64,000 nucleotides of DNA from contig NZ_CP118224.1 in NCBI RefSeq assembly GCF_030849025.1, positions 666,001 to 730,000 on the forward strand, in the 5' to 3' direction. A model generated the notes under the pieces. The model was given only the letters and a program-made list of their open reading frames with translations, had not been told where the DNA came from and searched no databases. Source of the DNA: Oceanimonas pelagia. GTDB taxonomy: Bacteria; Pseudomonadota; Gammaproteobacteria; Enterobacterales; Aeromonadaceae. Of the stretch, positions 14,300 through 32,604 are shown one piece after another (within the stretch, counting starts at the first letter, position 1; each line of letters begins with the position of its first letter). The translations under genes were made by a program, and so were the position numbers.

Positions 14300-15355
14300 G
14301 TGAGCGATCTGTTATCCCAGGATGAAATCGATGCCCTGCTGCACGGGGTGGACGACATCGAAGAAGAGGATGCCGGTACCGAAGATGGTATTGCCTCCTT
14401 TGACTTCTCTTCGCAGGATCGTATCGTTCGGGGTCGCATGCCGACCCTGGAAATGGTGAACGAGCGTTTTGCCCGTCATATGCGCATCAGCCTGTTCAAC
14501 ATGATGCGCCGCACCGCCGAGGTCTCCATTAACGGGGTGCAGGTCATCAAATACGGCGAGTACGTGCACTCGCTGTTTTTGCCCACCAGTCTCAACATGG
14601 TGCGCTTTCGCCCCCTCAAGGGCATTGGCCTGGTGACCATGGAGGCCCGGCTGGTGTTCATTCTGGTGGACAACTTTTTTGGGGGCGACGGCCGTCACGC
14701 CAAGATTGAGGGCCGGGAGTTCACCCCCACCGAACGCCGGGTGATCCAGCTGTTGCTGAAGCTGGTGTTTGAGGATTACAAGGAAGCCTGGGCGCCGGTG
14801 ATGGACGTGGAATTCGAGTACCTCGACTCCGAGGTAAACCCCACCATGGCCAACATAGTGAGCCCCACCGAGGTGGTGGTGGTGAGCTCCTTTCACATCG
14901 ATCTCGACGGCGGCGGCGGCGACTTTCACGTGACCCTGCCCTACGGCATGCTGGAGCCCATTCGCGAGCTGCTGGATGCCGGTGTGCAGAGCGACAAGGG
15001 CGAAAATGATCTGCGCTGGGGCAAGGCCCTGCGCGATGAAATTCTCGACGTGGAAGTGGAAATGACCACCCGGCTGCTGGAAAAGCAGGTCAGCCTGGGC
15101 GAGCTCATGAACTGGAAGGCCGGTGATATTATTCCCGTCGATATGCCCGAGCACCTGCTGGTGTCGGTGGAAGAGCTGCCCACCTTTCGCGCCCAGCTGG
15201 GCCGCGCGGGGGAGAAAATGGCCATTCGCATTACCGAAAAGATCAAGCGGCCGGAAACCGTCAAGACCGAGTTGCATGAAGTGACCCGCCGCGGCGTGCG
15301 CATTGATGGCGAAGCCGAGCTGGAAGAACTGGAAAGAACCATTGAGGACGCATAA
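14300..15355 (+). CDS. fliM: Flagellar motor switch protein FliM
   Basis: FliM is the C-ring protein that binds CheY-P and passes the signal to FliG. The N-terminal CheY-binding peptide is clear (LSQDEIDALLHG, residues 5-16), followed by the CheC-like middle domain with the FliG-contact sequence GG-D (VDNFFGGDGRHAKIEG) and the C-terminal SpoA domain (DIIPVDMPEHLLVSVEELP). The 351-residue length is normal. It starts at GTG 14300, and the stop overlaps fliN (ATAATG). The CheY-binding peptide resembles repeated motifs in the CheA encoded at 25738. Confidence 0.96.
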   Translation: MSDLLSQDEIDALLHGVDDIEEEDAGTEDGIASFDFSSQDRIVRGRMPTLEMVNERFARHMRISLFNMMRRTAEVSINGVQVIKYGEYVHSLFLPTSLNMVRFRPLKGIGLVTMEARLVFILVDNFFGGDGRHAKIEGREFTPTERRVIQLLLKLVFEDYKEAWAPVMDVEFEYLDSEVNPTMANIVSPTEVVVVSSFHIDLDGGGGDFHVTLPYGMLEPIRELLDAGVQSDKGENDLRWGKALRDEILDVEVEMTTRLLEKQVSLGELMNWKAGDIIPVDMPEHLLVSVEELPTFRAQLGRAGEKMAIRITEKIKRPETVKTELHEVTRRGVRIDGEAELEELERTIEDA

Positions 15356-19395: not shown

Positions 19396-21495
19396 ATGGA
19401 GTTAAGGGCAAGGCTTTCACAGGCAAAACAGTGGTCCCGGTGGGTGAACAAGGGCATGGGTACGCCGCTGCTGGTGCTGGCGGCGCTGGCCATGGTGGTG
19501 TTGCCCATTCCGCCCCTGATGCTGGACGTGCTGTTCTCCTTCAATATTGCCCTGGCGCTGGTGGTGCTGCTGGTGGCGGTATACACCCAGCGCCCCCTCG
19601 ACTTTGCCGCCTTTCCCACCGTGCTGCTGGTGGCCACCCTGCTCAGGCTGGCGCTCAACGTGGCGTCTACCCGGGTGGTGCTGCTGGAAGGCCACGAAGG
19701 GGGCAATGCCGCCGGTAACGTGATCGAGGCTTTTGGCTCGGTGGTGATCGGTGGCAACTATGCGGTCGGTCTCATCGTGTTTCTGATCTTGATGATCATC
19801 AACTTCGTGGTGGTCACCAAGGGGGCCGGCCGGATCTCCGAAGTGAGCGCCCGCTTTACCCTGGACGCCATGCCCGGCAAGCAGATGGCCATCGACGCCG
19901 ACCTTAACGCGGGGCTTATCAACCAGGACGAGGCCCGCACCCGCCGGGACGAAGTCACTCAGGAAGCCGACTTCTACGGCTCCATGGACGGTGCCTCCAA
20001 GTTTGTCAAGGGCGACGCCATCGCCGGCATCATGATCCTGTTTATCAACATTCTCGGCGGCTTTCTCATCGGCATGGCCCAGCATGGGCTGAGCTTCGGC
20101 GACGCCGCCCGGGTTTATACCCTGCTCACCATAGGGGACGGCCTGGTGGCGCAGATCCCCTCGCTGCTGCTGTCCATCGCCGCCGCCATTATCGTGACGC
20201 GGCAAAACACCCGGGAAGACATGGGCCAGGCCATGCTGGGTCAGCTTTTTGACAACCCGCGCTCGCTGGCCATTGCCGCCGGCATTCTCATCGCCATGGG
20301 GCTGGTGCCGGGCATGCCCCATTTTGCCTTTCTGCTGCTCGGCGCCCTGTCCGCCGCCGGCGCCTGGTGGATGCACAAGCGCCAGGGGGAGCGGCAGCAA
20401 CAGCAGGAAGAGGCCGGTGCCCAGCCGCCGGCGGTGGCTGGCAGTGAAAACCGCGAGCTGAGCTGGGATGATGTGATGCAGGTCGACACCATCGGCCTGG
20501 AAGTGGGTTACCGGCTGATCAGCCTGGTGGACATCTCTCAGGGCGGGGAGCTGCTCAGCCGCATCAAGGGCGTGCGCAAAAAGCTGTCCCAGGAGCTGGG
20601 TTTTCTGATCCCCGCCGTGCACATTCGCGACAACCTGGAGCTGGGCCCCAACCAGTATCAGATCACCCTGATGGGGGTCAGCTCGGGGCTCGCCGACATC
20701 TATCCCGAGCGGGAGCTGGCCATCAACCCGGGGCAGGTGTTCGGGCCGGTGCAGGGCATCGATACCCGGGATCCGGCCTTTGGTCTGGAAGCCACCTGGA
20801 TTGCCCGGGACCAGATCGAACACGCCCAGAGCCTGGGTTACACGGTGGTGGATGCCGCCACCGTGGTGGCCACTCATCTCAGTCAGTTGCTGACCAACAA
20901 TGCCGCCGTGCTGCTGGGTCATGAAGAGGTGCAGAACCTGATCGATCAGGTGGGGCGCAGCCAGCCCAAGCTGGTGGAGGGGCTGGTGCCCAATACCCTG
21001 AGTCTGGCCCTGGTCACCAAGGTACTGCAGAGTCTGCTGAACGAAGGCGTGTCCATTCGGGACATGCGCACCATTTTGCAGACCCTCACCGAATACGCAC
21101 CCAAGAGCCAGGATCCGGAAGTGCTCACCGCCGCCTGCCGCATTGCCCTGCGGCGTTTTCTGGTGCAGGAAATCGCCGGCACCGAGCGCGAGCTGCCGGT
21201 TATTACCCTGGCACCAGAGTTGGAACAGATTTTGCAGAACTCTTTGCAGGCCGGTGGCGCTCAGGGCAGCGGCATAGAGCCGGGGCTGGCGGAGCGCATG
21301 CAGCAGTCCCTGAGCCAGGCCGCCGCCAACCAGGAGCTGGAAGGTCAGCCGGCGATACTGCTGACCTCGGGCATGTTGCGTACCACCCTGGCGCGCTTTG
21401 TCAAACACACCATTCCCAGTCTGCGGGTGCTGTCTTACCAGGAAGTGCCGGATGATCGCCAAATCCGCATAGTGGCGTCGGTCGGGCAGCAGTAG
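19396..21495 (+). CDS. flhA: Flagellar export gate protein FlhA
   Basis: FlhA forms the nonameric ring under the export gate that couples proton flow to export. The 699-residue product has about eight membrane helices in the first 330 residues and the conserved cytoplasmic FHIPEP-type segment (VVTKGAGRISEVSARFTLDAMPGKQ is the family signature region, with GKQMAIDADLNAG). The C-terminal domain is complete. The Shine-Dalgarno sequence is weak (GCGAG). Normal length and no lesions. Confidence 0.96.
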   Translation: MELRARLSQAKQWSRWVNKGMGTPLLVLAALAMVVLPIPPLMLDVLFSFNIALALVVLLVAVYTQRPLDFAAFPTVLLVATLLRLALNVASTRVVLLEGHEGGNAAGNVIEAFGSVVIGGNYAVGLIVFLILMIINFVVVTKGAGRISEVSARFTLDAMPGKQMAIDADLNAGLINQDEARTRRDEVTQEADFYGSMDGASKFVKGDAIAGIMILFINILGGFLIGMAQHGLSFGDAARVYTLLTIGDGLVAQIPSLLLSIAAAIIVTRQNTREDMGQAMLGQLFDNPRSLAIAAGILIAMGLVPGMPHFAFLLLGALSAAGAWWMHKRQGERQQQQEEAGAQPPAVAGSENRELSWDDVMQVDTIGLEVGYRLISLVDISQGGELLSRIKGVRKKLSQELGFLIPAVHIRDNLELGPNQYQITLMGVSSGLADIYPERELAINPGQVFGPVQGIDTRDPAFGLEATWIARDQIEHAQSLGYTVVDAATVVATHLSQLLTNNAAVLLGHEEVQNLIDQVGRSQPKLVEGLVPNTLSLALVTKVLQSLLNEGVSIRDMRTILQTLTEYAPKSQDPEVLTAACRIALRRFLVQEIAGTERELPVITLAPELEQILQNSLQAGGAQGSGIEPGLAERMQQSLSQAAANQELEGQPAILLTSGMLRTTLARFVKHTIPSLRVLSYQEVPDDRQIRIVASVGQQ

Positions 21496-21508
21496 CGGGA
21501 GAGATTGA

Positions 21509-22867
21509 ATGAAGATTAAACGGTTTTTTGCCAAGGACATGAGAGCCGCGCTGGCCGAGGTCAAGGAAGTGCTCGGGGCCGATGCGGTGATCATGTCCAA
21601 CAAGAAGGTGTCAGGCGGCATCGAAATCGTGGCCGCCGTGGATGACGACGACGGCGCGCCGGTTGAACCGCCTTCACGGGCCCTGAGTGACGACAATGTC
21701 AGAATCTCGTCGCAGGCCCGTCAATTTGTCCCGCCGCTCAGCCAGCAGCAGCAGGCCGACTCGCTGCAGGCGCTGCTCAACCGCGGCAAAACCGAGCCCT
21801 CGCCCAAAACCCTGGCCGAGCAGGTGGACTGGGGCCAGCCCGAACGGCGCCGGGAGCCGGTGCTGAGCCAGCCTGCGCCGCTGTTTGCCGGCGGAGGCAA
21901 AAGCAGCCGGCAGAAGGAAAGCGCCAAGGACAAAGAGCTGAACGCCATGCGTCAGGAAATCGCCAGCATTCGCCGGCTGCTGGAACACCAGGTGTCCGGC
22001 CTGATGTGGCAGGAGGTGGAGCGGCGCGAGCCGGTGCGGGCCATGGTGATCAAGCAGCTCAAGCAGCTGGGGTTCAGCGATGGCTTTGCCGATATGCTGG
22101 CCATGCGGGTGCACGAGCGGGCCGCGCCCCACGAGGCCTGGGCCCAGATTGAAGCGGCGCTGAACGAACTGCTGGTGACCGGGGAAGACGAAATCATGCG
22201 TCAGGGCGGGGCTGTGGCCCTGCTCGGCCCCACCGGGGTGGGCAAGACCACCACCATCGCCAAGCTGGCGGCCCGCTTTGCCGCCCGCCACGGTGCCGAT
22301 CAGCTGGCGCTGATCACCACGGATCATTACCGTATCGGCGCGCACGAACAGCTGCAGACCTACGGCCGCATCATGGGCGTGGCGGTCAAGCAGGCGCGGA
22401 CCTATCAGGAACTGGCCCAGGCGCTGTATCAGCTGCGCCACCGCCGTCTGGTGCTGATCGACACCGCCGGCATGGGCCAGCGGGACATGCGCCTCAATGA
22501 GCAGCTCGACAACCTGGTGGGGGATCGCCAGATCCGCATTCGCAATTACCTGGTGCTGCCGTCCACCGCCCAGCGCCGTGTGCTGCAGGAGGCGGTGGAG
22601 CATTTTCGCCGCATTCCCCTGGCGGGCTGCATTCTCACCAAACTGGACGAGAGCCTGTCGCTGGGCGATGTACTCGACATCAGCATTCAGAACAGCCTGC
22701 CCATCAGTTATGTCACCGACGGCCAGCGGGTGCCGGAAGATCTGCGCCTGGCCAGGGCCGACGAGCTGGTGCGCCAGGCCCTGGGGACGGTAGAGCAGCA
22801 ACGGGAAGACCCTTACTACTGGGAAGCTTCCGATGCCGACCAAGAGGATGCGCGTTTTTATGAATAA
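21509..22867 (+). CDS. flhF: Flagellar placement GTPase FlhF
   Basis: FlhF is an SRP-family GTPase that marks the pole where the flagellum is built. Residues 1-~170 are the variable basic B domain (starting MKIKRFFAKDMRAALAEVKE). The NG domain follows with G1 GPTGVGKTTTIAKLAARF, TTDHYRIGAHEQL, G3 LIDTAGMGQRD and TKLDESLSLGDVLD. The 452-residue length fits the family. It overlaps flhG by eight bases, matching the paired control of flagellar placement and number. Confidence 0.95.
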   Translation: MKIKRFFAKDMRAALAEVKEVLGADAVIMSNKKVSGGIEIVAAVDDDDGAPVEPPSRALSDDNVRISSQARQFVPPLSQQQQADSLQALLNRGKTEPSPKTLAEQVDWGQPERRREPVLSQPAPLFAGGGKSSRQKESAKDKELNAMRQEIASIRRLLEHQVSGLMWQEVERREPVRAMVIKQLKQLGFSDGFADMLAMRVHERAAPHEAWAQIEAALNELLVTGEDEIMRQGGAVALLGPTGVGKTTTIAKLAARFAARHGADQLALITTDHYRIGAHEQLQTYGRIMGVAVKQARTYQELAQALYQLRHRRLVLIDTAGMGQRDMRLNEQLDNLVGDRQIRIRNYLVLPSTAQRRVLQEAVEHFRRIPLAGCILTKLDESLSLGDVLDISIQNSLPISYVTDGQRVPEDLRLARADELVRQALGTVEQQREDPYYWEASDADQEDARFYE

Positions 22868-24582: not shown

Positions 24583-24966
24583 TTGGACAAGAACATGAAA
24601 ATCCTCATCGTGGATGATTTTTCCACCATGCGCAGGATTATAAAAAATCTGCTCAGGGATCTGGGCTTTAACAACACGCACGAGGCGGATGACGGCCTGA
24701 CGGCCCTGCCCATGCTTAAGAACGGCGACTTCGATTTTGTGGTGACCGACTGGAACATGCCGGGCATGCAGGGCATTGACCTGCTCAAGGCCATTCGTGC
24801 CGACGAAAAACTCAAGCACCTGCCGGTGCTGATGGTGACCGCCGAGGCCAAGCGCGAGCAGATCATCACCGCCGCCCAGGCGGGGGTGAACGGCTATGTG
24901 GTCAAGCCGTTTACCGCCGGCACCCTTAAGGAAAAACTCGAGAAGGTTTTCGAGCGCATCGGATAA
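24583..24966 (+). CDS. cheY: Chemotaxis response regulator CheY
   Basis: CheY-P binds FliM and reverses the flagellar motor. The single receiver domain shows the acidic pair in [13 protein letters not shown], the phospho-acceptor Asp in [15 protein letters not shown], the Thr in MVTAEAKRE and the Lys in [16 protein letters not shown] place the start at a TTG (24583): AGGAGG sits six bases ahead, and it gives the usual opening [12 protein letters not shown]; the ATG 12 bases later would be too far from that site. 127 residues. cheZ follows nine bases on. Confidence 0.96.
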
Positions 24967-24975
24967 GGGTCTCAC

Positions 24976-25728
24976 ATGACACAACCACAAGGACTGATCA
25001 GTCTGGAACAGGCCCGAAACCTGGTGGCACTGCTGGAGCAGGGAGATCAGGCCGGGGCCGATCGTTTTATGACCGAGGTCTGCATGCCTCATGCGGACGC
25101 CCTGCTGGAGCAGGTGGGGCAGCTGACCCGTCAGCTGCACGATGCGCTGCAGGAGTTTCGTAACGACCCCCGTCTGCCGGAGCTGGCCCAGACCGATATT
25201 CCCGATGCCCGTGAGCGCCTGAATTACGTCATCGACATGACCGACAAGGCCGCCAACCGGACCATGGATGCGGTGGAAGCCAGCCTGCCCATTGCCGACC
25301 GGCTCAACGATCGCATTCAGCAGGTGATGCCGGGCTGGCGCGGGTTGATGCAACGGCAGCTTGAGCTTAACAAGTTCAAGGAACTTTGCTACCAGCTCGA
25401 CGATTTTCTCCAGGATTCCGAACAGGATGCCGACCGGCTGCGCCAGTTGCTGACCGAGATCCTGATGGCCCAGGACTACCAGGATCTCACCGGTCAGGTG
25501 ATTCGCCGGGTGATCAAGCTGGTGCAGGAGGTGGAAGCCAAGCTGGTAGACATTCTGTCGGTATTTGGTCGCCTGACCGGTGAGCAGGCAGGCAACCGGA
25601 CCCCGCCGGCGGCCGGCCGGAGCGAGGCCATTGAGGCCGAGGGGCCCATCATCAACAGGGAACAGCGTGATGACGTGGTCTCGGATCAGGATGAAGTGGA
25701 CGATCTGCTGTCCAGTCTGGGATTTTAA
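24976..25728 (+). CDS. cheZ: CheY-P phosphatase CheZ
   Basis: CheZ accelerates CheY-P dephosphorylation and so resets the motor. The 250-residue helical protein has the catalytic helix with Gln in ILMAQDYQDLTGQVIRRV (residues ~164-181), and a flexible linker ends in the C-terminal CheY-docking peptide DQDEVDDLLSSLGF. That peptide is similar in pattern to FliM's N-terminus and to motifs in CheA. Located between cheY and cheA, as in Pseudomonas and Vibrio. Confidence 0.95.
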   Translation: MTQPQGLISLEQARNLVALLEQGDQAGADRFMTEVCMPHADALLEQVGQLTRQLHDALQEFRNDPRLPELAQTDIPDARERLNYVIDMTDKAANRTMDAVEASLPIADRLNDRIQQVMPGWRGLMQRQLELNKFKELCYQLDDFLQDSEQDADRLRQLLTEILMAQDYQDLTGQVIRRVIKLVQEVEAKLVDILSVFGRLTGEQAGNRTPPAAGRSEAIEAEGPIINREQRDDVVSDQDEVDDLLSSLGF

Positions 25729-25737
25729 GGAGCAAGC

Positions 25738-27783
25738 ATGGGCTTTGAGGTAGACGAGGATATTCTGCAGGACTTTCTGGTGGAAGCATCGGAAATTCTG
25801 GAGCAGCTGTCGGAGCAACTGGTGACCCTGGAGCGTCAGCCCGACGACAAGGATCTGCTGAACGCCATCTTCCGCGGCTTTCACACCGTCAAGGGCGGTG
25901 CCGGCTTTTTGTCACTGACCGCTTTGGTGGACACCTGCCACAAGGCCGAGAACGTGTTTGATATTCTGCGCACCGGTCAGCGTCGGGTGACCTCCGAGCT
26001 GATGGACGTGATCCTGCGGGCGCTGGATACGGTGAACGCCATGTTTGCCCAGATTCAGAACCGCCAGGAGCCCACCCCGGCAGATCCGGCCCTGCTGGAA
26101 GAGCTGGGTTTCTATTGCCAGCCCGAGCAGCCGGACGAAACACCGCCGCCGGCGGTTGAGACCCCGGCGGCCGGCACCCCGGCCGAAGACAATAGCATCG
26201 AGTCCCTCAGCGAGCAGGAATACCGGCAAATGCTGAACGAGCTCGATGGCGAGCAGGCGGCCAGCGACAGCGACGACATTACCGACGACGAATTCGAAGC
26301 CCTGCTTGACCAGCTGCACGGCGCCGGCAAACACGGCGGCGTGCCGCAGAGCGGCGCCGTGGCCCGCCCCGAGCCGGTGGCCGGCGCCGCCGGCAGCGGC
26401 GACGACGATTTGATTGACGACAGCGAATTCGAAGCCCTGCTGGACCAGCTGCACGGTGCCGGCAAGGGCCCCACCGCCACGCCGGCGCCGGGAGGCGCCG
26501 TGCCCACCGGCGCCGTGCAGCCCGCGGCCGCGAAACCCGAGGCGTCCGTTGCGGCGGCCAAACCCGCTGCCAAGGCAGAAGCTGCCAGGCCGGCGGCCCA
26601 CCAGCCGCCCCCCGCCGATACCACGGTGCGGGTGGACACCAGGACCCTCGACAGCATCATGAACATGGTGGGTGAGCTGGTACTGGTGCGTAACCGCCTG
26701 CTCAGCCTGCAGTCCGGCCACGAGAACGAGGAAATCACCAAGGCGGTGACCAACCTCGACGCCGTGACCGGCGATCTGCAGGGCGCGGTGATGAAAACCC
26801 GCATGCAGCCCATCAAGAAGGTGTTCGGTCGCTTTCCCCGGGTGGTGCGGGATCTGGCCCGCAGCATGAAAAAGGAAATCGAGCTGGAAATGGTGGGGGA
26901 AGAGACCGATCTCGACAAGAACCTGGTCGAGGCCCTGGCCGATCCCCTGGTCCACCTGGTGCGCAACTCCTGTGATCACGGCATTGAAACCCCGGAAGAG
27001 CGGGAAGCCGCCGGCAAGCCGCGCAAGGGGGTGATCCGGCTGACCGCGTCCCAGGAAGGGGATCATATTCTGCTCGGCATTGAAGACGACGGCGCCGGCA
27101 TGGATCCGGAAAAGCTCAAGGGCATTGCCATCAAGCGCGGCATTCTCGATGCCGACGGCGCCGCCCGCATGAGCGACCACGAGGCCTACAACCTGATCTT
27201 TGCGCCCGGCTTTTCCACCAAGGTGGAGATCACCGACGTGTCTGGCCGGGGCGTGGGCATGGACGTGGTCAAGACCGGCATCAGCTCGGTGAACGGCTCC
27301 ATCTTTATCGATTCGGAAAAAGGCAAGGGCACCAAACTGCAGATCAAGGTGCCGCTGACCCTGGCCATCCTGCCCACCCTGATGGTGGTGGTGGGAGAGC
27401 AGACCTTTGCCCTGCCGCTGACCAACGTCAACGAAATCTTCCACCTGGACCTGACCAAGACCAGCATGGTGGACGGCCAGCTCACCGTGGTGGTGCGCAA
27501 CAAGGCCATTCCGCTGTTCTATCTGCAGGACTGGCTGCTGCGCGGCGGCAAGCGCGAGCGCAAGGCCCACGGCCATGTGGTGATCGTGATGATCGGCAAT
27601 CAGCAGGTGGGGTTTGTGGTGGATGGCCTGATCGGCCAGGAGGAAGTGGTGATTAAACCGCTGGATCAGCTGCTGCACGGAACCCCCGGCATGGCCGGCG
27701 CCACCATTACCAGCGACGGCGGCATCGCTCTGATCCTCGACATTGCCGGCCTGATCAAGGCCTACGCGCGTCGTTACGCCTGA
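25738..27783 (+). CDS. cheA: Chemotaxis histidine kinase CheA
   Basis: CheA is the array kinase that phosphorylates CheY and CheB. HPt domain: residues 1-~110 with the phospho-accepting His49 in [12 protein letters not shown]. From ~135 to ~295 there is no folded P2 domain but a Pro/Ala-rich linker carrying three related motifs: [11 protein letters not shown] (161-171), [11 protein letters not shown] (185-195) and [11 protein letters not shown] (230-240). Then come dimerisation ([14 protein letters not shown]), the HATPase ([33 protein letters not shown]) and a C-terminal CheW-like domain. 681 residues, complete. AAGGAG precedes the start. Confidence 0.96.
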
Positions 27784-27811
27784 CGCCATAACAGGGAGCA
27801 CGACAATAATA

Positions 27812-28948
27812 ATGACTATTCGGGTTTTGGTGGTCGACGATTCCAGTTTTTTCCGCCGGCGGGTCAGCGAGATCCTGGCGCAGGATCCCTTGCTGGAGGT
27901 GATCGACACCGCCGCCAACGGCCGCGAGGCGGTGGAAAAGGTGAAGACGCTGCGACCGGACGTGATCACCATGGACATAGAAATGCCGGTGATGGACGGC
28001 ATCAGCGCGGTGCGCGAGATCATGAAGGTTTCGCCCACGCCGGTGCTGATGTTTTCTTCCCTCACTCACGAGGGCGCCCGGGCCACCCTGGAGGCACTGG
28101 ACGCCGGTGCCATGGATTTTTTGCCCAAGCGCTTTGAAGACATCGCCCGCAGCAAGGAAGAGGCCATTTTGCAGCTGCAGCAGCGGGTGCGCGCCATTGC
28201 CCGGCGCCGGCCGCGGGTGGCAAGCCCGCGGCCGGCCTCCACGCTGTCGTCGCTGCCGTCCCGGACCGCGCCGGTGCGCGCTCCCGCGGCCGCCTTCAGC
28301 CGCCCGAATGCCGGTGAGCCGGCTCAGCCGGTGGTGGCAGCGGAGCGGCGCAGTCTGCCCCGGCGCAGCGGCAAGAGTTACCAGCTGCTGGCTATTGGCA
28401 CTTCCACCGGCGGCCCGGTGGCGTTGCAGGCGGTGCTGACCAGGCTGCCGGCCAACTTTCCCCATCCCATCGTGCTGGTACAGCACATGCCGGGCACCTT
28501 TACCACCGCCTTTGCCGCCCGGCTCGACGGCCTGTGCCAGATCCGCGTGAAAGAGGCGGAAGACGGCGACGTGTTGCGTCCGGGCCATGCCTACCTGGCC
28601 CCCGGCGGCCGGCAGATGATGTTTGAAGGCCGCCCCGGCGCGGCCCGGCTGCGCATTCTCGACGGTAACGACAAGGTCAATTACAAGCCCTGTGTCGACA
28701 TTACCTTCGCCTCGGCCGCCAAGGTATATGGCGGCAAGGTGCTGGCGGTGGTGCTCACCGGCATGGGTGCCGACGGCCGCGACGGCGCCCGCCTGCTGAA
28801 AGAGCAGGGCGCCAGCGTCTGGGCCCAGGACGAGGAAACCTGCGTGGTCTATGGCATGCCCCAGGCGGTGGCCAAGGCCGGCATCGCCACCGAGTCGCTG
28901 CCGCTGCCGCTGATCGGTGAGGCCATCGTTCACGAAATGGCGGGCTGA
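27812..28948 (+). CDS. cheB: Chemoreceptor glutamate methylesterase CheB
   Basis: CheB demethylates and deamidates chemoreceptors, giving adaptation. The receiver domain is residues 1-~130 ([13 protein letters not shown]; phospho-acceptor Asp in [13 protein letters not shown]). After a Pro/Arg/Ala-rich linker, the methylesterase domain shows the catalytic Ser in [12 protein letters not shown], His in [10 protein letters not shown] and Asp in [12 protein letters not shown]. 378 residues. The next gene, a stator subunit, starts one base after the stop codon. Confidence 0.96.
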
Positions 28949-29693: not shown

Positions 29694-30532
29694 AGCGGCG
29701 TTCGTTGCTGCCCGCCCGCCACGACCAGCATACCGAGCGCTGGCTGGTGTCCTACGCCGACTACATGACCCTGGCCTTTGCGCTGTTTGTGATGCTGTAT
29801 GCGGTGCATGCCTCGCGCAGTGAACTGCGCCAGCCGGTGGTGGACGGGGTACAGCAGGCGCTGGGGCAGCTGGGCATGCGCCCCGACAAACAGGGGGCGC
29901 TGGAGCGCCAGGGCCAGCCGGCACTGCCGGTGAGCGCACAGCCGGCGGCGACGTCTTCCGCCAACAGCCTGCACGAATTCAGCCTGGGCCTGGGAGAGCG
30001 GCTGGCACCCCTGGTCGAGCGCCGTCTCGCCAGCATTGAGCAGGGCGAAAACGAGCTGGTGCTGACCCTGGACGGCCGCCTGCTGTTTGCCGAGGGCAGC
30101 GCCCTGCTCGGGGCCAACAGCGAGCCGGTGTTTGCGGCCCTGCTGCCGCTGCTGGCCCGGGATAATCATTTTTTGCGGGTGCGCGGCTTTGCCGACAACG
30201 TGGCGGTGAGCAACGAGCTGTATGTGTCTGACTGGCAGCTGTCCGCCGAGCGCGCCCGGGTGGTGCTGGAGCGCCTGGCCGGCGGTGGTGTCGCTCCCCA
30301 GCGGCTGCGGCTTGAGGCCTATGGCCAGTACCGCCCCGCGGAGCGGGACAGAGGAGAGGCCGGGCGCTCCCTCAACCGGCGGGTGGAAATCGCGGTTTCC
30401 AGCCGGTGCTGGCAGCCCCCCGAGAGGCCGGCACCGGTCCGCACCCTGCCGCCGGACGACAACGGCGGCCTGCAGGTGTATGAGCTGCCGGGGGGCGGCA
30501 TTCGCATTACCAACGACAGGATGACCCCGTGA
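29690..30532 (+). CDS. motD: MotB-family stator subunit, MotD type
   Basis: The partner of the preceding gene. The single N-terminal membrane helix carries the ion-binding Asp in SYADYMTLAFALFVMLYA. A linker and an OmpA-like peptidoglycan-binding domain follow (LRVRGFADNVAVSNELY; WQLSAERARVVLERL; RSLNRRVEIAV), anchoring the stator to the wall. 280 residues, start overlapping the motC stop (ATGA). Residues in the helix fit a proton- or sodium-driven channel; the ion cannot be decided from sequence alone. Confidence 0.9.
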   Translation: MKRRSLLPARHDQHTERWLVSYADYMTLAFALFVMLYAVHASRSELRQPVVDGVQQALGQLGMRPDKQGALERQGQPALPVSAQPAATSSANSLHEFSLGLGERLAPLVERRLASIEQGENELVLTLDGRLLFAEGSALLGANSEPVFAALLPLLARDNHFLRVRGFADNVAVSNELYVSDWQLSAERARVVLERLAGGGVAPQRLRLEAYGQYRPAERDRGEAGRSLNRRVEIAVSSRCWQPPERPAPVRTLPPDDNGGLQVYELPGGGIRITNDRMTP

Positions 30533-31314
30533 TAGTCTGGACCGTAGCAAATCAGAAAGGCGGCGTCGGCAAAACCACCTCGGTGGTGGCTCTGGCCGGC
30601 CTGCTGGCGCAGCGCAACAAGCGGGTGCTGCTGATCGACACCGATCCCCACGGTTCGCTCAGCGCCTACCTGGATTACAACTCCGATACCCTGGCCGGCA
30701 CCCTGTTTGATCTGTTTCAGGTGCCCGGGGCGGGGCGCGCCGAGCTGGAGCGGGTGGCACTGGCCACCCGCTTTGAGGGCATCACCCTGTTGCCCGCATC
30801 CATCTCCCTGGCCACCCTGGAGCGTACCTCCAGCAGCCGGGAAGGCATGGGGCTGGTGCTCAAGCGGCTGCTGGCGCAGGTGAAAGACGAGTTCGATGTG
30901 GCCATTATCGACTGCCCGCCGGTGCTGGGGGTGATGATGGTTAACGCCCTGGCCGCCTGTGACCGCATTCTGGTGCCGGTACAGACCGAGTTTCTGGCGC
31001 TGAAGGGGCTGGAGCGCATGGTCAGCACCTTTAAACTGATGCACAAGGCGCGCAAGGACGGATTTAATTACACCGTGGTGCCGACCATGTATGATCAGCG
31101 CACCCGGGCCTCGGTGCAGAGCCTCGAGAGCCTGAAAGAACAATACGGCGACCGGGTGTGGCCGGCGGTGATTCCGGTGGACACCAAGTTTCGTGACGCC
31201 AGCCTGCGCCACGAGCCACCATCCTATTTCGCCAGGGGCAGCCGGGGGGTGTATGCCTACCAGACCCTGCTGCGCTATTTGTGGCGTCTCGACGGAGGAG
31301 ACCAGCCATTATGA
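30529..31314 (+). CDS. ParA-like ATPase of chemotaxis array positioning (ParC)
   Basis: A ParA/Soj family ATPase. In Vibrio the homologue at this position, ParC, brings chemosensory arrays to the cell pole together with ParP. The 261 residues show the deviant Walker A NQKGGVGKTTS, Walker A' VLLIDTDPHGS and Walker B VAIIDCPPVLG. GTG start overlapping the motD stop; it overlaps the next gene by four bases. Named by family and context; it is not a chromosome-segregation ParA because no ParB gene accompanies it. Confidence 0.9.
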   Translation: MIVWTVANQKGGVGKTTSVVALAGLLAQRNKRVLLIDTDPHGSLSAYLDYNSDTLAGTLFDLFQVPGAGRAELERVALATRFEGITLLPASISLATLERTSSSREGMGLVLKRLLAQVKDEFDVAIIDCPPVLGVMMVNALAACDRILVPVQTEFLALKGLERMVSTFKLMHKARKDGFNYTVVPTMYDQRTRASVQSLESLKEQYGDRVWPAVIPVDTKFRDASLRHEPPSYFARGSRGVYAYQTLLRYLWRLDGGDQPL

Positions 31315-32096
31315 ACCAACGTCAGTTTGCGGCTCTCGATGATTACTTCGGCGCCCTGCTGGAAGAGAGCGAGCCCCGGCCGCAGGCGGCGGTCGTGTCC
31401 GCCAGGCCCGAGCCCGTGGTGCCGGCCTATGCGGATCCGCAGGAGGACGAGCGGCGCCGGTCGCTGGAGACCCTGCTGGCCACGGTGGCCGAGCTGAAGG
31501 AAGAAGAGGCGGCCGCCGCCGAGCCGGCCGAACAGCTGCCCGATCAGGCGCCGAAGGTGACGCCGCAAGTCAAAACCGAGGCGCCGGCTCCGGTGGCAAC
31601 TCCGGAGCCGGTGGTGCAGCCGGAGCCTGCCGCGCCGGCCTGGCGCAACATGGACACCGAGGCCCGCTTTCAGGCGCTGTTTTTCGAGGTGGCGGGCATG
31701 ACCTTTGCCGTGCCGCTGACCCACCTGGGGGGCATTTATCAGCTGTCGAAGCTGACCAGCCTGTTTGGCAAGCCGGCCTGGTTTTCCGGCATCATGACCG
31801 AGCGGGAACGCCAGCTCAGCGTGGTGGACACCGCCCGCTGGGCCATGCCTGGCCATACCCAAGACGAGGAATACCAGTATGTGGTGACCCTGGGCGAGAG
31901 CAGCTGGGGGCTGGCCTGTCATCAGCTCAAGGGCACCGCCCAGCTTTCCCGGGAGCAGGTGAAGTGGCGCACCACGCCGGGCTCCCGGCCCTGGCTGGCG
32001 GGCATGGTCAAGGAAAAAATGTGTGCCCTGCTGCACGTGGATGCATTGATCGCATTGCTGGAGCAGGGCAAAAATATCGACGGACAACGGGTCTGA
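31311..32096 (+). CDS. CheW-domain protein ParP
   Basis: ParP links the ParC ATPase to CheA and receptors and keeps arrays at the pole in Vibrio. The 261-residue protein has an N-terminal segment (NQRQFAALDDYFGALLEE), an Ala/Pro/Glu-rich linker (residues ~90-120) and a C-terminal CheW-like domain (LFFEVAGMTFAVPLTHLGGIY; GIMTERERQLSVVDTARW; MCALLHVDALIALLE). The start at ATG 31311 has GGAGGAG about ten bases ahead and overlaps the ParC gene. Assigned by domain and conserved neighbourhood. Confidence 0.88.
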   Translation: MNQRQFAALDDYFGALLEESEPRPQAAVVSARPEPVVPAYADPQEDERRRSLETLLATVAELKEEEAAAAEPAEQLPDQAPKVTPQVKTEAPAPVATPEPVVQPEPAAPAWRNMDTEARFQALFFEVAGMTFAVPLTHLGGIYQLSKLTSLFGKPAWFSGIMTERERQLSVVDTARWAMPGHTQDEEYQYVVTLGESSWGLACHQLKGTAQLSREQVKWRTTPGSRPWLAGMVKEKMCALLHVDALIALLEQGKNIDGQRV

Positions 32097-32115: not shown

Positions 32116-32604
32116 ATGAGCAATCATCGCAATCTGGCGGAAAATCTGGCTGAAGACGAAGTGTTGCAGTGGGTGACCTTTCGCCTCGACAACGAAACCT
32201 ACGGCATCAATGTGATGCAGGTGCAGGAGGTGCTGCGCTACAGCGACATCGCGCCGGTGCCCGGCGCCCCCGACTATGTGCTGGGTATCATCAACCTGCG
32301 CGGCAACGTGGTCACCGTGCTCGACACCCGGCTGCGCTTTGGCCTGCAGCCCGCCGAGGTCAGTGACAACACCCGCATCGTGATCATCGAGGCGGAAAAG
32401 CAGGTCATCGGCATTCTGGTGGACAGCGTGGCCGAGGTGGTTTACCTCAAGTCGTCGGAAATCGAAAGCGCCCCCAATGTGGGCACCAGCGAGAGCGCGC
32501 GCTTTATTCAGGGCGTGTGCAACCGGGAGAACGAGCTGCTGATCCTGGTGGATCTCGACAAGCTGCTGTCCGACGACGAGTGGGAAGAGCTGAGCCAGCT
32601 CTGA
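32116..32604 (+). CDS. cheW: Chemotaxis coupling protein CheW
   Basis: CheW couples chemoreceptors to CheA. The 162-residue protein is a single CheW domain (WVTFRLDNETYGINVMQVQEVLRY; VLGIINLRGNVVTVLDTRLRFG; VDSVAEVVYL; ENELLILVDLDKLL). A short N-terminal extension (NHRNLAENLAEDE) is typical of polar-flagellate CheW proteins. GGTGAG precedes the ATG. The stop shares a base with the following DUF2802 gene. Confidence 0.95.
   Translation: MSNHRNLAENLAEDEVLQWVTFRLDNETYGINVMQVQEVLRYSDIAPVPGAPDYVLGIINLRGNVVTVLDTRLRFGLQPAEVSDNTRIVIIEAEKQVIGILVDSVAEVVYLKSSEIESAPNVGTSESARFIQGVCNRENELLILVDLDKLLSDDEWEELSQL

Follow-up and report, generated by a model that had tools for sequence, protein, structure and literature searches.

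A repeated acidic peptide in the linker of one clade of CheA kinases: a possible CheY-docking stand-in for the P2 domain

The chemotaxis operon and the linker of its CheA

A chemotaxis operon with the gene order cheY-cheZ-cheA-cheB-motC-motD-parC-parP-cheW was identified among the open reading frames of the window, that is, the whole stretch of Oceanimonas pelagia DNA analysed here (64,000 nucleotides). The genes cheY, cheZ, cheA, parC, parP and cheW were checked against Pfam, and the names cheB, motC and motD are presumptive, given by the look of the sequences. A receiver match was obtained at cheB; the genome has 45 such matches in all. Very long antisense open reading frames lie over cheA (25912-28065, minus strand, 717 aa) and flhA (19417-21696, minus strand, 759 aa), by which simple picking of open reading frames was misled. 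At three related loci (L137, L128 and L149), cheY lies immediately 5' of cheA, and cheZ was not found within the locus. The coordinates of the features discussed below are collected in Table 1.

Table 1. Genes, peptides and motif copies in the window (numbered from its first nucleotide)
Feature	Position	Strand	Remarks
FliM N-terminal peptide LSQDEIDALLHG	14312..14347	+	FliM start reads VSDLLSQDEIDALLHG
cheY, proposed partner	24595..24966	+	Lys at the residue equivalent to E. coli 117
CheZ C-terminal peptide SDQDEVDDLLSSLGF	25681..25725	+	aligns with the end of the 1kmi CheZ chain
cheA	25738..27783	+	681 aa; Hpt-linker-P3-P4-P5, no P2 found (open reading frame and Pfam)
CheA linker, residues 126-290	26113..26607	+	Pro/Ala-rich, mostly predicted disordered
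Copy 1	26206..26250	+	degenerate; core from 26218; 17.5 bits; replaced share 0.60; predicted helix
Copy 2	26278..26331	+	canonical; core 26290-26322; 54.4 bits; replaced share 0.07; predicted helix
Copy 3	26413..26466	+	canonical; core 26425-26457; 45.7 bits; replaced share 0.15; predicted helix
parC, ParA-type ATPase	30529..31314	+	named by position and homology
parP, CheW-like C-terminus	31281..32096	+	named by position and homology

The window CheA contains the Pfam domains Hpt (residues 8-100), H-kinase_dim (residues 295-354), HATPase_c and CheW. The two families of the P2 or CheY-binding domain (PF07194 and PF09078) gave no Pfam match in this protein, and no P2 match was obtained in six relatives (two Vibrio, Pseudomonas alcaligenes, Shewanella xiamenensis, Aeromonas sobria and Marinobacter). 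Over 92 N-terminal halves of CheA, neither P2 family ranked within the top 25 of 112 Pfam families; since the 25th-commonest family has 3 members, P2 families could match at most 3 of the 92. As a control, PF09078 matched 15 of 56 other CheAs. A profile of the 92 searched against the PDB (E up to 1) gave matches over P1 or P3 and none to P2; two unrelated chains were matched at chance level (E 0.25 and 0.89).

The structure of the region was predicted with AlphaFold from a read-through of the window cheY-cheZ-cheA (671 residues, 50 rows; mean pLDDT 68.4, pTM 0.30). Most of the predicted linker has a pLDDT below 50 and it contains no strand, and no folded alpha/beta domain was found between P1 and P3 in the prediction. 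Helices were predicted at CheA residues 159-170 (copy 1 of the motif), 183-193 (copy 2) and 228-238 (copy 3). In this model the copies are short helices within a disordered region. The earlier note had described a Pro/Ala-rich linker without a recognisable P2 domain, a description borne out by the Pfam search, the PDB search and the strandless prediction alike.

The motif has a consensus of about I(T/S)(D/E)(D/E)EFEALLD(Q/E)LHGxGK. Three segments of the linker had been named as copies, from 26218, at 26290-26322 and at 26425-26457, and all three were found at these positions, each led by acidic residues. The count of three needs qualification: copies 2 and 3 are canonical, whereas copy 1 is degenerate and at chance level, its 17.5 bits falling below the 18.5 bits that the CheA-copy profile gives at the C-terminus of the MlaA lipoprotein. 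The MlaA site was dismissed as a chance match. Judged by profile score and codon constraint, the window CheA is a kinase with two firm copies and one decayed copy. Copies 2 and 3 fall within a 67-nt direct repeat with 82% DNA identity, and they are close in DNA in the window despite the presence of copies at like places elsewhere. In Aeromonas, of the same family (genus by named relatives), the first-position copy is also near canonical (DEISADEFERLLDELHG). A purely local, recent duplication was considered and rejected, since separate copies stand at like places in other genera.

Two other short elements of the operon were noted. The C-terminal tail of CheW (LSDDEWEELSQL, window positions 32566-32601) is kept in related CheWs, a loose pattern of it being present in 113 of 151 tails; it is the top chemotaxis match of the CheA profile outside CheA, with run-off at the end unpenalised. 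The N-terminus of ParP (window about 31320-31350) shows the conserved pattern Y-(L/F)-x-x-L-L-x-(E/D), which resembles EIDALL of FliM and falls within the part of ParP reported to bind ParC.

Distribution and constraint of the motif

A CheA match at 1e-90 was obtained in 129 of 276 genomes of the class. From these, 118 stretches were fetched, and 94 loci (L061-L154) hold this CheA type. A motif profile was made from 221 instances at 90 loci, with the family of the window left out. A copy scoring at least 15 bits was found in 91 of the 92 CheAs parsed from the 94 loci, the same loci that supplied the profile; the two unparsed were L092 (a variant copy) and L148 (masked). The sole exception, L152, is a different CheA picked by the script, and the F6-type CheA of L152 has one copy. 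The first motif pattern had missed the variants of L092 and L096, and L081, L148, L154 and L155 were left unparsed by it; for L081, L092, L096 and L154 the linker was inspected visually. In the family of the window, with the window counted, all 11 of 11 CheAs contain a copy of at least 15 bits. The same holds for 80 of 80 named genomes, in 74 of which three copies are present; being the best 80 of 589 matches, these are near relatives and an uneven sample. No CheA of these 80 duplicates one used for training (L278 is identical to L102, which lay outside the training set). The number of copies per CheA ranges from one to four and is usually two or three.

The motif was found in none of the 56 other CheAs parsed, out of 64 loci. 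The outside-clade CheA nearest to it is that of L335, with DADIDFDALLADLD at 9.8 bits. A tree of 184 CheAs was built from P3 onward without the linker, with 20 of the 80 named loci used and L148 left out. The 123 carriers (at least 10 bits) form one clade with a local support of 0.944, with zero carriers outside the clade and zero non-carriers inside. Across the sampled sequences, the motif is the mark of one whole kinase clade, which includes Vibrio, Shewanella, Pseudomonas, Aeromonas, Marinobacter and others. We tentatively take this clade to be class F6, an assignment with which the gene order and the single clade agree.

Two carrier loci of one family, L114 and L143, have a shortened motif (ITDEEFELLLQMREQ in L114) after an LPEG-DPD stretch. 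In both, cheW instead of cheB stands beside cheA, and ParC and ParP were not found. The DQLHG half of the motif is lost in these loci, which indicates that the FliM-like half is the most firmly kept.

According to a survey, more than half of CheAs are without P2, and P2 is there judged dispensable (PMC10782961). At least 40 of the 56 other CheAs are without a Pfam P2 and are motif-free, so the copies track the clade and not the loss of P2 generally, and the loss of P2 does not require the motif. The motif as a general stand-in for any P2-less CheA was rejected on the count of zero in 56 outside the clade. The CheA of Pseudomonas putida has been described as having five domains like that of E. 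coli (PMC11978298).

The constraint on each copy was estimated by a codon comparison of the window cheA with 18 genomes of its genus, in which the proportion of codon changes that alter the amino acid was counted pairwise against the window, uncorrected for shared descent. This share was 0.07 for copy 2, 0.15 for copy 3 and 0.60 for copy 1, and outside the copies it was 0.14 for P1, 0.22 for P3-P5 and 0.74 for the remaining linker. By this measure, the constraint on copies 2 and 3 is comparable to that on the folded domains, and copy 1 is nearly free. The frequency of the majority residue, taken over 92 aligned N-terminal halves (the window and 91 loci), has a mean of 0.70 in copies 2 and 3 together, and is 0.71 in P1, 0.71 in P3 and 0.30 in the remaining linker.

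Likeness to the peptides of FliM and CheZ and to the P2 helix

The FliM of the window begins VSDLLSQDEIDALLHG and its CheZ ends SDQDEVDDLLSSLGF, as the earlier note had read them, and the end of CheZ aligns with the end of the 1kmi chain. The CheA copies contain the FliM/CheZ-type sequence core (D/E)E-hydrophobic-(D/E)-x-L-L. When a profile made from CheA only was run over the FliMs of 30 loci, the N-terminus was the top site in 25 of the 25 scored; the other 5 loci had no FliM matching the N-terminal pattern. With the same profile, the C-terminus of CheZ ranked first in only 87 of 180. In a background of 141,337 positions from 415 gene-like open reading frames, 6 positions scored above the FliM site and 10 above the CheZ site. 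This background covered 464 kb of this genome, with CheA and CheZ absent from it, displaced by long antisense open reading frames. An internal site in FlhA scores nearly as well as the FliM site (median 4.1 bits, 78 loci), and the SHOCT family (PF09851) matches the motif in 82 of 92 CheAs; these matches indicate that some of the resemblance is what any N-capped amphipathic helix would show. Of the likeness proposed in the earlier note between CheA, FliM and CheZ, that to FliM is the sharper and that to CheZ the weaker. The conserved DQLHGxGK half of the CheA motif is without a FliM counterpart.

The first P2 helix of a P2-bearing CheA (SEIDLLLEEL) is paired with copy 2 by profile alignment and by BLAST alike. 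In six P2-type CheAs (L221, L216, L217, L222, L223 and L225), the first P2 helix reads E-I-D-L-L-L-E-E-L, with the spacing of the CheA, FliM and CheZ peptides. Residues E171, E178 and H181 of the E. coli P2 helix are CheY contacts. This first helix of E. coli P2 runs E171-VDLLEEELG-H181 (numbering from the alignment to 6s1k). In none of the six P2-type CheAs does the profile put the P2 helix first (rank 2 to 8), so the likeness of copy 2 to it is suggestive only. It is also suggestive only that the P2 helix and the peptides of CheA, FliM and CheZ look as if they made one kind of CheY contact.

On the side of CheY, Lys or Arg is present at the position of E. coli residue 117 in 161 of 182 CheYs. 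The change K117E, in the helix that meets FliM, has been reported where an F6-type CheY works with an F7 CheA (PMC7184735).

Proposed function and comparison with known systems

The conservation of the copies, their confinement to one clade, the lack of P2 and the likeness to FliM and CheZ make a shared CheY-docking peptide the best reading. Tandem, disordered docking peptides of the FliM/CheZ type probably stand in for P2 in these kinases. The linker would serve as a flexible arm with between one and four helix-forming peptides, most often two or three. These would dock the receiver of CheY on its alpha4-beta5-alpha5 face and would keep the docked CheY near the phospho-histidine of P1; the receiver of CheB may be docked by the linker peptides as well. 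In this way local concentration and multivalency could replace a folded domain in the job of P2. The binding of CheY, the face that is bound and the effect on phosphotransfer are inferred from sequence. What a docking site may be worth is indicated by the dissociation constants reported for E. coli CheY, about 0.5 uM for P2 and about 900 uM for isolated P1 (PMC5705603).

Another partner than CheY may be docked by the motif, mainly the receiver of CheB or else CheW, P5, P4 or P1, so that kinase activity, adaptation or array packing would be tuned. The CheB of the operon does have a receiver domain, and a half of the motif (DQLHGxGK) that FliM does not share is conserved. Yet where one half is lost (L114 and L143) it is the FliM-like half that is kept, and the surface charge of CheY suits an acidic peptide; we consider such a partner unlikely. 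That the copies have no receiver as partner and act only as helical spacers, or as an oligomerisation element of the SHOCT kind, is very improbable. The sequence is indeed that of a generic N-capped amphipathic helix, as the FlhA match indicates, and the SHOCT matches are widespread, that of L313 (Pseudomonas alcaligenes) even exceeding the cut-off (29.1 against 27 bits). However, no whole-model SHOCT match above the cut-off was found: the window CheA reaches 21.0 bits over model positions 12-27 of 28, the match of L313, the one above the cut-off among six named CheAs, covers positions 12-27 only, and all seven CheAs shown in full match within positions 11-27, six of them below the cut-off. 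Constraint as strong as that of folded domains is, moreover, unexpected of a spacer. The Pfam matches to SHOCT and GemA were considered and set low.

A further alternative equates the motif with the core of the CheA LID, which binds the AIF domain of ParP and so anchors the arrays at the cell pole. The LID of Vibrio is described as lying between P2 and P3, binding ParP and being limited to CheAs with ParC/ParP (PMC5706961, PMC7534058). For V. cholerae CheA, a review gives this placement between P2 and P3, and the motif lies between P1 and P3; parC and parP belong to the same operon as the window cheA, Vibrio CheAs carry three copies, and the LID and the copies may overlap. Against this stand seven genomes from five families in which ParC and ParP were not found and the FliM-like half is kept. 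ParC was searched in 17 genomes, comprising 15 with fetched loci without parC, this genome and one positive control; loci without parC outside this search include, for example, L079, L081 and L085. Nine genomes scored above 190 bits and eight at 132 bits or less, the level of a generic second ParA here (128 bits), and seven of these eight had a readable linker. ParP was sought by profile, a single-sequence search being insensitive; in the seven genomes the profile gave matches at the level of CheW (26-33 bits) or nothing, and the three controls gave 102-275 bits. The seven loci contain two copies (L096 and L114), one (L128 and L149), four (L133), three (L143) or a degenerate motif (L146). In them cheA is followed by cheB, motC or cheW, and no parC or parP was found in the fetched stretches. 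Since these genomes keep the motif, it is not simply the LID, though the LID may overlap it, and we regard an identity of the two as distinctly unlikely.

For the docking of CheY by tandem peptides, a consequence can be drawn from the motor. Phospho-CheY is reported to be bound by FliM about 20-fold better than CheY (PMC7355467). A kinase with the same peptide may, as a prediction, retain its product in like manner. P2, in contrast, is not known to hold on to the phosphorylated CheY product. In a wider and more tentative form, to which we give somewhat less than an even chance, the kinase, the motor and the phosphatase would compete for one face of CheY through a peptide code shared across the F6-type clade, the kinase having one to four copies per subunit in place of P2, possibly as a multiplied mimic of the first P2 helix, and retaining phospho-CheY. 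If so, the speed with which the signal leaves the array would be set by the number of copies, and models of signal flow would have to let kinase, motor and phosphatase compete for a single CheY surface. The question of how P2-less kinases hold CheY would receive a concrete answer for one large clade, Pseudomonas included. A search of the openly licensed literature, by the letters of the motif as well, found no paper naming such a motif. CheY-binding peptides and P2-less CheAs are known; their tandem use in a kinase clade would be new.

Four known systems can be compared with the motif. The P2 domain shares with it the position in the chain, the presumed job and a helix, E-(I/V)-D-L-L-x-E-E-L, with which copy 2 aligns. 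P2 is folded, whereas CheAs with the motif have a disordered linker with repeated copies, no strands and no P2 match. The LID of Vibrio occupies the same stretch of chain in the same kinases but is described as limited to species with ParC/ParP, and the motif is not so limited. The FliM peptide, for which we take 1f4v to be the structure with CheY, shares the acidic lead, the E-hydrophobic-(D/E)-A-L-L core and a flexible setting; FliM has one N-terminal copy in the motor, whereas CheA has several internal copies and the added DQLHGxGK, with Phe in place of the Ile or Val of FliM and CheZ. The CheZ peptide is a flexible tail, E-V-D-D-L-L-x-x-L-G, that resembles the CheA motif in its LLxxL portion, and it is present as a single C-terminal copy on the phosphatase (E. 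coli CheZ chain of 1kmi as reference).
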